This document shows, in pieces, positions 2,076-43,168 of a stretch of DNA of 43,327 bases; the stretch's first letter is position 1, and each line of letters starts with the position of its first letter. The position numbers were made by a program, and so were the translations under genes. The DNA comes from Nanobdellati archaeon (lineage in GTDB: Archaea > Nanobdellota > Nanobdellia > Woesearchaeales > JAADFO01): the NCBI GenBank assembly GCA_013152815.1, contig JAADFO010000011.1, forward strand, positions 1 through 43,327. The letters run 5' to 3'. The notes under the pieces are model-generated. The model did no database searches, was not told where the DNA came from, and saw only the letters and a program-made list of their open reading frames with translations.

Positions 2076-3590
2076 CTATCTGCGACAGACCTTCCTGAAG
2101 GTCTCGGCAGCCTCAGCAAGCGTGGGATGGACATGGACGGTCCGGGTGATGGTCTCGAGAAAGGGGCTGCTGCTGTTCATGACAGCAACATACTCATGGA
2201 TAAGCTCGTCTGCTCTTGGACCGACGATGGTGCATCCGAGGATGCGCTGTCGGGTCCTTCGGCCTGCGGAGCCTTTCCTGCCCATGCCGACGATGAGCTT
2301 GATGAACCCCTCTGTCTCTCCGATGATGGCCGCCCTTCCGGCCTTCGCGAACGATGCTTTGTATATCTCGAACAGAAGTTTCCCCTTCGTCGCCTGCTGC
2401 TCGGTCAGTCCGACACCAGCAATAGGAGGTGAGGTGAACACGGCCCAGGGCACCAGGGAGAGATCGAGATGGTCTCCGTGCCGAGAACGGCTGCCGACGA
2501 TGCGGCTCAGAAGCAGCCGCGCCTGCCGCTTTGCCGCATGGGCGAACATGGCCTTTCCTGTCACGTCGCCGACGGCATAGACCGACGGGTTGGTGGTCTG
2601 GAACTTCTTGTCGATGATGATGCCTCCTTCTGGTGAGGTCCTGATTCCTGCCTGTTCCAGACCCAGGCCATCGGTATTGGGCGTCCTTCCTGCAGCGACC
2701 AGCAGGGCATCGCTCGTGATGCTTTTCAGCCTTCCTTTGGCAGTGCCTTTGCCGGCAGGACGATAACGCAGGATGATGCGTCGTCCCTGCCGCTTCACCT
2801 CAGCGATGCTCACGCCTGTCAGGATGACGGTCCCTCGGGAACGCAGTCCTTCAAGGAGGACATCCCGCACATCCTCGTCAAGGGAAGACAGGACCTGAGG
2901 AAGCGCCTCCAGGATGGTCACCCTGGTGCCGAGGCTGCTGAAGAAGGTGGCAAGTTCCATCGAGATGTAGCCGCCTCCGATGAGGGTGAGGGTCCGGGGA
3001 AGGGTCTTAAGATGGAATACGGATTCATTGGTCAGGAAACCTGCATTCTCAAGGCCTTTGATCAGGGGTATCCTGTTACGGGAACCGGTGCAGATCACGA
3101 TGATGGCACCTTTCACGGTCTTCCTGCCCACGCGAAGCGTGTCCTTCGAGAGAAAAGATGCTCTTCCTTTCCAGACCGTAAGATCCGATGCATCGATGCT
3201 CCTGTCGATATGGGCCTGGCCTTTGCGGATGAATGACCTCACCTGTCTCATCATGCGGGGGATATCGAGGCTTGCAGCGGTCCTGATGCCGATGGACGGT
3301 GCTCGGGCTACTGACCGATAGGTCTCGGCAGCATGGAGCATCGCCTTCGTCGGGATGCAACCCGTATGGAGACAGGTTCCTCCTGGCCTGCCGGGCTCCA
3401 CGAGCAGCGTCTGCTTCCCTTTCCGGGCAAGAGAAAGACCGAGACGCAGCCCGGCAGTCCCGCCACCGACTACGATGACATCGAAGGATGCAGAGGACAT
3501 CTGATGATGCATCTTCTTTCCTTTTTCTCTCTGTCCGCTCTGTCCTTTCTGTCCCCGCTGCGTTCCCGGCTTCTTCTGCGTGATCTTCAT
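2076..3590 (-). CDS. FAD-dependent pyridine nucleotide-disulfide oxidoreductase (Lpd/MerA-like)
   Basis: A class I flavoprotein of 504 residues. It has an FAD-binding VVGGGTAG near 40-47, redox-active cysteines in GGTCLHTGCIP (C73 and C78), an NAD(P)-binding LIGGGYISME, the second FAD motif VYAVGDVTG, and the dimerisation domain with the catalytic HPTLAE. It therefore resembles dihydrolipoyl dehydrogenase and mercuric reductase, but no MerA heavy-metal domain or Cys-Cys tail is visible. A better E3 candidate ends the pyruvate dehydrogenase operon nearby, so this copy may serve another substrate or complex. Start: the ATG at 3590 has GGTGA 4 bases upstream; a GTG at 3620 would lie before the predicted transcript start. 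The first 35 residues are a Lys/Gln/Gly-rich extension, so an ATG near 3510 is also possible. Confidence 0.85.
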   Translation of the reverse strand: MKITQKKPGTQRGQKGQSGQREKGKKMHHQMSSASFDVIVVGGGTAGLRLGLSLARKGKQTLLVEPGRPGGTCLHTGCIPTKAMLHAAETYRSVARAPSIGIRTAASLDIPRMMRQVRSFIRKGQAHIDRSIDASDLTVWKGRASFLSKDTLRVGRKTVKGAIIVICTGSRNRIPLIKGLENAGFLTNESVFHLKTLPRTLTLIGGGYISMELATFFSSLGTRVTILEALPQVLSSLDEDVRDVLLEGLRSRGTVILTGVSIAEVKRQGRRIILRYRPAGKGTAKGRLKSITSDALLVAAGRTPNTDGLGLEQAGIRTSPEGGIIIDKKFQTTNPSVYAVGDVTGKAMFAHAAKRQARLLLSRIVGSRSRHGDHLDLSLVPWAVFTSPPIAGVGLTEQQATKGKLLFEIYKASFAKAGRAAIIGETEGFIKLIVGMGRKGSAGRRTRQRILGCTIVGPRADELIHEYVAVMNSSSPFLETITRTVHVHPTLAEAAETFRKVCRR

Positions 3591-41187: not shown

Positions 41188-42330
41188 ATGGAGATAACTG
41201 AGATCAACGACCTTAAGGGTCTGCAGGCGTTGGAGCCTGAATGGAAGGCCCTGCTCGACAACAGCTATAGTGCCACTTTCTTCCAGAGCCCTGAATGGAT
41301 CATCACCTGGACCAAGCATTTTCTTGACGACAGGAAGCTCAGGGTATTGGTCGCGCGCGAGCAAGGAGAGCTCGTCGGAATCGCTCCGCTGTTCATGACG
41401 CTCCAACGGGAGGGCGTCACCAACAGGACCATCAAGTTCCTGGGCGATCCACTGACCGACTATAACGATTACATCATCCATAATGATTACGTTGACAAGG
41501 TGCTTGAAGGCTTCTGCGGCCACCTCCATGCGCATGCCGATGAATGGAACCGGCTCCAGCTCAGAGAGATGCCCGGCGAATCAAAGACCCTCGCCTACAT
41601 CAAGAAAAAGCACAGGGCAAGCCTTCCGGTGAAGCAGGAAGAGACCTTCCGTTTCCGCATCTCTGAAGAGGACGGCTCGGTCGGGGAGATCATGGAACGG
41701 GTGGAGAAGAAGATCACCGAGCGGAGAGGACGGCTCAAGAAATTCATCCATTCCCAAGCCTATTCTGCCGGACTCGCAAAGGACTATGCCGAGTTCCTGT
41801 CGTTCATGGAGCGGCTGAAAGCGTTTCACATCAGACGCTGGGCCGATACCTCGACGCCCAGCTATTTCACCGACCCGAAGCACGTGCATTTTTTCGAGGA
41901 GCTGCACCGTCTGCTCTGGGACAGGGGCATGATCAACCTCTCTGTCGTCCGCAGACAAGGGGAGGTCATCGCGACCATCCTCTGTTATCTTTACCAGGAC
42001 CAATGCTATTATTACACCTCATCCTATTCCTGGGAAGCGAAGAACATCTCCCCTTCCCATGCGAACTTCCTGTCCACCATAGGTTTCTGCATCGAACGGG
42101 GATTCCATACCTTTGATTTCGGACGAGGGGATGAATCCTTCAAGAGAGAGTATGCCAACCATATCTGCAGGAACTACAGCATCGACGTGGTGAACAAGCC
42201 GGTCCTGATGCCGCTCCTCAAGGCCAAGCAGCTCTTCCTCGGCAGCCTCCGGGAGAATCCCAGGCTCTACAGGAAAGCCAAGCAGGTCAAGGAGTTCCTG
42301 GGGATCATGCATAAAAGTACAGTTGGTTGA
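41188..42330 (+). CDS. BcsL/FemAB-like GNAT acyltransferase
   Basis: A 380-residue protein of the Acetyltransf_6 (CelD/BcsL) group. The first ~100 residues read FFQSPEWIITWTKHF and GIAPLFM, the usual lead; the C-terminal GNAT part has TILCYLY, SPSHANFLSTIGFCIERGFHTFDFGRGDESFKREY and ends in a basic helix. Family members acetylate or aminoacylate envelope polysaccharides or peptides in other organisms. No sugar-nucleotide genes are nearby, so the substrate is open. The start is fixed by the TATA box; an earlier ATG at 41170 lies before the transcript. Confidence 0.8.
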   Translation: MEITEINDLKGLQALEPEWKALLDNSYSATFFQSPEWIITWTKHFLDDRKLRVLVAREQGELVGIAPLFMTLQREGVTNRTIKFLGDPLTDYNDYIIHNDYVDKVLEGFCGHLHAHADEWNRLQLREMPGESKTLAYIKKKHRASLPVKQEETFRFRISEEDGSVGEIMERVEKKITERRGRLKKFIHSQAYSAGLAKDYAEFLSFMERLKAFHIRRWADTSTPSYFTDPKHVHFFEELHRLLWDRGMINLSVVRRQGEVIATILCYLYQDQCYYYTSSYSWEAKNISPSHANFLSTIGFCIERGFHTFDFGRGDESFKREYANHICRNYSIDVVNKPVLMPLLKAKQLFLGSLRENPRLYRKAKQVKEFLGIMHKSTVG

Positions 42331-42360: not shown

Positions 42361-42392
42361 TCAGCTCTTCCCCAGTTTCTGGACAAAGCCTT
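42361..42392. repeat. 32-bp direct repeat, left copy
   Basis: Identical to 43137-43168, begins tcagctcttcccc, and on the minus strand encodes the last residues and stop of the gene that ends at 43137. It lies just after the acetyltransferase gene and marks the left edge of the toxin-antitoxin cassette. Confidence 0.75.
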
Positions 42393-42423
42393 CAACCACA
42401 GGTAAATGTCCTCAAGAACAAAA

Positions 42424-42465
42424 CATTTATATATCCATTGATACTTTATAGGTATCCATTGATAC
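42424..42465 (+). promoter_or_regulatory. TATA box and tandem operators of module 3
   Basis: CATTTATATATCC overlaps two copies of TATCCATTGATAC (42432-42444 and 42453-42465), spaced 21 bp centre to centre, i.e. two helical turns. The right copy contains the inverted repeat GTATC-CATT-GATAC. Location over the promoter and start fits autoregulation by the antitoxin. Confidence 0.6.
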
Positions 42466-42480
42466 GAATAGGTGATAAAC

Positions 42481-42786
42481 ATGCCTGAACTCAAATTTAC
42501 TGATAATGAACTGATCGAAAAGATAGATCACAAGATAAGAAGATACCCCAATCTAAGCACGGTCCTCATGGTTGAGGACTTTCTGAAGAAGCACAGAGAT
42601 ATTCCCATAAAGATCTCTAGACTAAAACAAGCATTGCCAAGACAGGTCATGCATCAAACCTTGAAGATCATACTGGAATATCTTTTCAGAAGCGGAAAGA
42701 TCATGTACGGCCCTAAAGGAATTCAATGGATCTATGCAGAACCAGAACATCTAAAGAGAATGATGAAAGACACACTGGAGATCTAG
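42481..42786 (+). CDS. Winged-helix-like antitoxin, module 3
   Basis: A 101-residue protein of the archaeal pattern found before RelE toxins: helices ELIEKIDHKIRRYPNLSTVLMVEDFLKK, then a helix-turn-helix and wing SRLKQALPRQVMHQTLKIILEYLFRSGKIMYGPKGIQWIYA. It should bind the tandem operators upstream and neutralise the toxin. GGTGAT sits 4 bases before the ATG at 42481; an ATG at 42472 lies before that site. Cassette carried between 32-bp repeats. Confidence 0.72.
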   Translation: MPELKFTDNELIEKIDHKIRRYPNLSTVLMVEDFLKKHRDIPIKISRLKQALPRQVMHQTLKIILEYLFRSGKIMYGPKGIQWIYAEPEHLKRMMKDTLEI

Positions 42787-42787
42787 G

Positions 42788-43129
42788 ATGTATGCAGGGA
42801 AAGAAGTAAGGATACTATTGAAAGGTCAAGCAAAGAACAGCTATCTCGCACTTAAGAAAAGAACAGACAAAGAATCGCAAAGCATCTTGAACTCAATAGA
42901 GAGAATAAAAACAATACTCAAAGACAATCCGCAATTCGGAGATCCGATAGCAAAGAGATTGATACCCAAATCATTGAAGGATCTAAACATCCAGAACCTG
43001 TATCGCGTTGAGCTATCAAATTACTGGAGAATGCTCTACACACTTGAAGGAAATAAGATTGAAATCTTTTTGTTCGTGCTGAATATAGCAGGCCATAAAG
43101 AATATGACAAATTATTCGGATACAAATAG
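42788..43129 (+). CDS. RelE-family toxin, module 3
   Basis: A 113-residue protein with a RelE core: NSYLALKKR, helix SQSILNSIERIKTILKDNPQFGD, KRLIPKSLKDLNIQNLYRVELSNYWRMLYTLEGNKIEIFLFVLNIAGHKEYDKLFGYK. The C-terminal HKEYDKLFGYK is a frequent signature of archaeal toxins of this type. It begins one base after the antitoxin stop. The frame is intact, and this is the only one of the three modules that is both complete and precisely flanked by repeats. Confidence 0.78.
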   Translation: MYAGKEVRILLKGQAKNSYLALKKRTDKESQSILNSIERIKTILKDNPQFGDPIAKRLIPKSLKDLNIQNLYRVELSNYWRMLYTLEGNKIEIFLFVLNIAGHKEYDKLFGYK

Positions 43130-43136
43130 AGGGGTT

Positions 43137-43168
43137 TCAGCTCTTCCCCAGTTTCTGGACAAAGCCTT
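43137..43168. repeat. 32-bp direct repeat, right copy
   Basis: Same sequence as 42361-42392. This copy is the original 3' end of the gene that runs off the window edge. Confidence 0.75.

Follow-up and report, generated by a model that had tools for sequence, protein, structure and literature searches.

A small toxin-antitoxin cassette bounded by direct repeats of a gene 3' end in a Woesearchaeota-type archaeon

The stretch of DNA analysed here (the window, 43,327 nucleotides) is an entire contig (G000:C11) of a Woesearchaeota-type MAG of 1.49 Mb. Within it, a toxin-antitoxin (TA) pair was found between the two copies of an exact 32-bp direct repeat, TCAGCTCTTCCCCAGTTTCTGGACAAAGCCTT (Table 1). 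The repeat begins precisely at the TGA stop codon of a minus-strand open reading frame (ORF), referred to here as gene X, and covers the last codons of that frame. The copies are identical over the 32 bp, and similarity between them breaks off abruptly at both edges. The original prediction had described an exact 32-bp repeat running inward from the stop codon of a gene, and both copies were recovered as described. Its further proposal, that a lone TA pair lies between the copies with no transposase or integrase, was also borne out, as the antitoxin and toxin ORFs were the only ones of any size there. The cassette does not conform to a DNA transposon, since neither an inverted repeat at its ends nor a transposase ORF was found. 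As with attL/attR-type sites, the direct repeats are made of the 3' end of the target gene and the gene is intact; by contrast to such elements, only the TA pair lies between the repeats and no integrase is carried inside.

Table 1. Features of the window locus and of related loci in other contigs. Plain coordinates refer to the window.
Feature	Location	Strand	Basis
FemAB/GNAT-type acetyltransferase gene, far side of cassette	41188..42330	+	Acetyltransf_6, E=1e-25
Distal copy of gene X 3' end, promoter side of cassette, reading GFVQKLGKS (stop)	42361..42392	-	exact repeat
TATA-box-like promoter element catttatatat, in stretch conserved among cassettes	42424..42434	+	sequence
Two 13-bp copies of TATCCATTGATAC (42432-42444 and 42453-42465)	42432..42465	+	sequence
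Antitoxin, 101 aa, predicted winged-helix fold	42481..42786	+	ORF; conserved upstream of toxin in relatives
Predicted toxin, 113 aa, RelE/ParE superfamily	42788..43129	+	profile and fold matches
7-bp spacer, toxin stop to gene X stop	43130..43136		sequence
Gene-side repeat copy, gene X stop and last codons	43137..43168	-	exact repeat
Gene X, 3' part (62 codons, cut by contig end)	43137..43327	-	open frame; codon score
31-bp repeat CCCCGACCTAAAGTGCGGGG	L236 (G000:C51) 1425-1455 and 2172-2202		
polB 3' ends	L013, L031, L184 (in L184 both copies are polB ends)		
lysS 3' end	L100		
lspA 3' end	L111		
PD-(D/E)XK nuclease gene 3' end	L152		
Archaeosortase-like gene 3' end	L084		name by sequence only
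ppsA-like gene 3' end	L078		by sequence only
Membrane HTH gene 3' end	G211, G210		
tRNA-Gln 3' ends	L058, L075		
trm1-like gene 5' end	L021		by sequence only
Small gene 5' end	L169		

At distances of up to 2.5 kb, no direct repeat in the whole 43-kb window is longer than the 32-bp match, the next longest being 17 bp, and the chance of such a match in a region of this size is about 1e-12. A chance origin was excluded by this length, far beyond expectation, together with the uniqueness of the repeat in the genome. The first 21 bases had no further match in the 1.49-Mb MAG with up to 3 mismatches allowed, the same 32-mer was not found next to other cassettes of this genome, and both the 32-mer and gene X were absent from the viral contigs searched.

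The toxin family gave weak matches to ParE_like in 19 of 23 members and to ParE_toxin in 9 of 23. When a structure model of the toxin (confidence 76.5, moderate) was compared to the PDB, nearly all of the best matches were of RelE/ParE/HigB/YoeB type (E 0.002-0.1), with YoeB, HigB2, ParE and RelE chains among them; the predicted toxin has a modelled RelE/ParE fold. The antitoxin model (pLDDT 88.7) is that of a winged-helix protein, with weak fold matches. The cassette shares with type II RelE/ParE modules the toxin fold and the two-gene layout, but differs from them in that its antitoxin is a small winged-helix protein encoded ahead of the toxin and in its weak sequence similarity to known families. 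The two copies of TATCCATTGATAC upstream of the pair are probably an operator for autoregulation.

Among the six reading frames of its region, that of gene X scored best for codon usage, and gene X is likely to be a real gene. No Pfam or NCBIfam match was found for it, nor any convincing homologue among 353 genomes of the order, and the search for an empty site was accordingly unsuccessful. The FemAB/GNAT-type gene on the far side of the cassette would have been the ancestral tail-to-tail neighbor of gene X.

Homologues of the toxin were detected in 201 of the 353 genomes of the order. The closest of these (80-85% identity to the toxin of the window) occur in other families, whereas the sole genome of the same family has a toxin of at most 52% identity, a distribution that points to horizontal spread of the TA pair. 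DNA similarity to relatives, which begins near 42412 and ends with the toxin stop codon, is limited to the cassette and excludes the flanks. Ca. Woesearchaeota and Nanoarchaeota make up most of the named relatives carrying this TA family, and some records come from Pacearchaeota, Micrarchaeota, Nanohaloarchaea, Diapherotrites and Aenigmatarchaeota; searches of viral contigs and plasmids for the toxin returned none. One record titled Aminicenantes bacterium (L151, JAFCCF010000060.1) carries the archaeal TA pair and seems to be the same contig as G044:C73, the genome of which is placed in the order of the window, so the record is probably mislabelled. The genome of the window also has a second, distant TA pair of the same family between exact 31-bp direct repeats with a hairpin (CCCCGACCTAAAGTGCGGGG). 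With up to 3 mismatches allowed, the sole further copy of this repeat found in the genome was at L247 1501-1526 (G000:C71), beside an unrelated RelBE-like TA pair.

About 150 distinct cassettes were gathered with their flanks, and the left flank of each was aligned to its right flank. By this approach, an alignment score of at least 20 was reached in 26 of 142 cassettes compared to 0.76 expected from mismatched flank pairs; in a narrower earlier test, scores of at least 25 were obtained for 13 of 141 cassettes and for 0.05% of mismatched pairs. Control positions away from the cassettes gave few matches, mostly in repetitive or paralogous genes, and a polB-locus control gave flank repeats at 0 of 28 loci. 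Manual review, in which L024, L175, L011, L178, L053, L112 and L176 were dropped (repetitive proteins, paralogues or weak alignments) and two short exact cases of 17 bp (L013 and L058) were added, left about 20 cassettes with convincing repeats. No flank repeat was detectable for more than 80% of the cassettes; either their repeats have decayed or insertion does not always leave them. Repeat sequences differ from locus to locus, mostly with a different gene each time, and neither a common core nor inverted repeats at the cassette ends were found across the cassettes. Distal repeat copies were seen at or near contig ends in L063, L080 and L127, as expected if a population mixes occupied and empty sites.

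The target sites are mostly 3' ends of unrelated genes, those in Table 1 among others. The placement originally predicted for the window, at a gene 3' end with the C-terminus left intact, is thereby seen in many independent relatives. A role of polB as a general insertion hotspot was rejected, with one repeat among 30 loci. Several targets carry arrays. The lysS end occurs three times in L100, where the units consist of a TA pair and a 122-codon ORF; in G211 a gene end likewise occurs three times, with units of a TA pair and a long non-TA gene; and in L152 the three copies of the gene end separate two different TA pairs. G210, a congener of G211, lacks the TA pair but has the gene together with the non-TA unit and the distal repeat of that unit, although the outer flanks of the two loci differ. 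A pair of loci in genome G132 (L014, and the reverse complement of L237, G132:C53, 2647-3496) shares the left as well as the right repeat, but the enclosed two-gene units differ, with a RelE-like TA pair in one and a unit with a DUF2283 protein in the other.

Where the two repeat copies have diverged, they still resemble coding gene ends. All 11 gene-end pairs compared have an in-register stop codon in both copies, and this codon differs between copies in six of them (for example TAG/TGA in lysS, TGA/TAG in polB and TAA/TAG in lspA). Synonymous changes make up 36 of 62 nucleotide differences compared to 22% expected (pN/pS 0.20), an excess with P=3e-4 even if one copy is taken as neutral and the other as fully constrained; the pairs were chosen by similarity, with frames and ends set by hand, and this and the following P value are indicative. 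An identical core with diverged flanks was observed in polB (40 of 72 bp), lysS (52 of 78), the trm1-like gene (87 of 289) and the ppsA-like gene (79 of 107), with a combined P=2e-12 although several single pairs are non-significant. In the clearest pairs (polB, lysS and trm1-like), mismatches lie on both sides of the core. Identical cores could also have been produced by gene conversion between the copies at a later time.

These observations bear on the suggestion, made in the original prediction, that the repeat arose by duplication-mediated capture. Under such a scheme, 17-290 bp of the target would be copied as the TA pair enters, either through a staggered break or through a replicative event. 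In favor of this, the window copies form a perfect duplication of 32 bp, the position of the inner repeat edge varies, and long variable duplications of about 100 bp are recorded for another addictive gene pair (PMC3874152). A duplicated single target would, however, be identical at birth, have arbitrary ends and decay on the displaced side, whereas most of the gene-end repeats terminate at the stop codon or only a few bases away from it, and the non-gene copy, unlike one freed from selection, still has a stop codon, in many cases a different one, with changes that are mainly synonymous. Because the diverged copies retain a stop and coding constraint, with an identical core amid divergence, plain target-site duplication is disfavored, and we regard it as improbable. 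Recombination in the middle of a pair of homologous gene ends derived from different lineages would give the pattern observed. Still harder to accept is that no mobile element was involved and that the locus reflects an ordinary tandem duplication or an artefact of assembly, which appears very improbable: the contig does end 159 bp beyond the gene-side repeat copy, and some distal copies lie at contig ends (L063 and L080), but the arrangement recurs in numerous independent assemblies, among them contigs of 40-330 kb, with a different gene each time, and no longer similarity surrounds the window copies.

Action of a tyrosine recombinase in trans, with the repeats as attL and attR and the gene end held in a cassette attP as in other archaeal integrated elements, has more to commend it. 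Insertion at gene and tRNA-Gln 3' ends is typical of such elements, as are arrays at one site and a tip and stop that the element supplies (PMC6563490), and most of the repeat lengths (17-57 bp) are inside the known att range. Against this, about 20 cassettes with related TA genes share no repeat core, such that each would need its own recombinase. The genome of the window has one tyrosine recombinase, which looks like housekeeping XerA, and across 1.1 Mb of loci recombinase genes, both XerA-like, were near just two cassettes, which are themselves devoid of flanking repeats. The search was one for tyrosine recombinases. Strand exchange by tyrosine recombinases spans 6-8 bp, compared to identical cores of 40-87 bp here. 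Of the original proposal of a small cassette moved in trans, the small cassette at a gene 3' end stands, and the look for an orphan integrase yielded the one XerA-like recombinase. As repeats from different loci have no sequence in common, homology-driven exchange is preferred over a recombinase in trans, which we consider unlikely.

By homology-driven exchange, a minimal mobile TA cassette would have entered at the 3' end of gene X through recombination with a cassette-borne gene end, and on balance this is probably what occurred. The mobile unit would be about 0.78 kb (promoter, antitoxin and toxin), carried on incoming DNA, for example a small circular or concatemeric molecule, with a short copy of the gene X end next to the TA pair. 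Recombination within the shared stretch, in 20-90 bp of near-identical coding sequence and with no dedicated integrase, would give gene X cassette-borne last codons and a stop, while its former end would remain on the opposite side of the cassette; the addictive effect of the TA pair would then keep the cassette in place. A crossover inside the shared gene end would account for a repeat that starts at the stop codon and for a gene that is intact. Because gene X lacks a homologue and no empty site was found, the mechanism at the window is argued from relatives, and we infer the circular intermediate, the homology-driven crossover, the retention by toxicity and their extension to this locus. A free circle, an empty site or an excision was not seen in the MAG data. 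Against exchange, the locus alone fits simple duplication equally well, given identical copies in the window and a gene X devoid of relatives; most cassettes show no repeat; and the tRNA-Gln 3' ends among the targets are classic integrase sites.

Archaeal elements integrated in the 3'-distal ends of protein genes have been surveyed in Thaumarchaeota (PMC6563490). The cassettes resemble these elements in their direct repeats of gene or tRNA 3' ends, element-derived tip, alternative stop and tandem arrays. They differ in size and content, being 0.75-0.95 kb with TA genes only and no integrase, whereas the surveyed elements are large. The cryptic ones among them span 2.6-98 kb, and an integrase is part of their definition, which the smallest, of 2.6 kb, has as well. 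The cassettes fit a similar gene-end exchange within about 0.8 kb without an integrase. Archaeal integrons and integrase-less cassette clusters (PMC9668308) likewise consist of small promoter-plus-TA units and arrays with a repeat between units, but the repeats here are host gene C-termini that vary by locus rather than one attC family; comparison of repeat sequences and the tyrosine recombinase search revealed repeats that differ between loci and only the XerA-like enzyme. For bacterial restriction-modification systems, insertion with long target duplication has been proposed (reviewed in PMC3874152, its refs 81 and 82), and on that account these systems share with the cassettes an addictive gene pair, no recognised transposase and long variable direct repeats; the cassettes differ as archaeal TA genes whose repeat copies look like diverged coding gene ends, not a copied target.

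How chromosomal TA genes move without a carrier mobile element is a long-standing gap, and insertion scars are readable here in about 20 cassettes, all of a single TA family, that have kept their entry site. We tentatively suggest, as a possibility somewhat short of even, that DPANN archaea harbor integrase-free cassettes that use a host gene end as homology arm, enter downstream of that gene through homologous exchange, provide it with a new functional C-terminus and stop, and form arrays with fossil gene ends between the units, with TA genes as the commonest cargo. If true, this would be a simple route for short addictive genes through small-genomed archaea, and fossil gene ends could be read from any genome.

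Other genes near repeats were observed at a few loci. In L183 (640-3018), an AAA ATPase-like gene and a TA remnant lie between two gene-end copies (TTATPxPVFESVYEK, stop), suggesting larger cargo of the same kind. Beside the TA pair of L075 is a nucleotidyltransferase and HEPN-like pair bounded by its own exact 23-bp direct repeat (2024-2046 and 3150-3172). L240 (G211:C186) has a reverse transcriptase gene (87-800, RVT_1 E=5.6e-19) beside a 98-bp repeat (1-98). G211 has dozens of copies of this repeat, often at the ends of contigs, and the arrangement resembles a diversity-generating retroelement or dispersed repeat.
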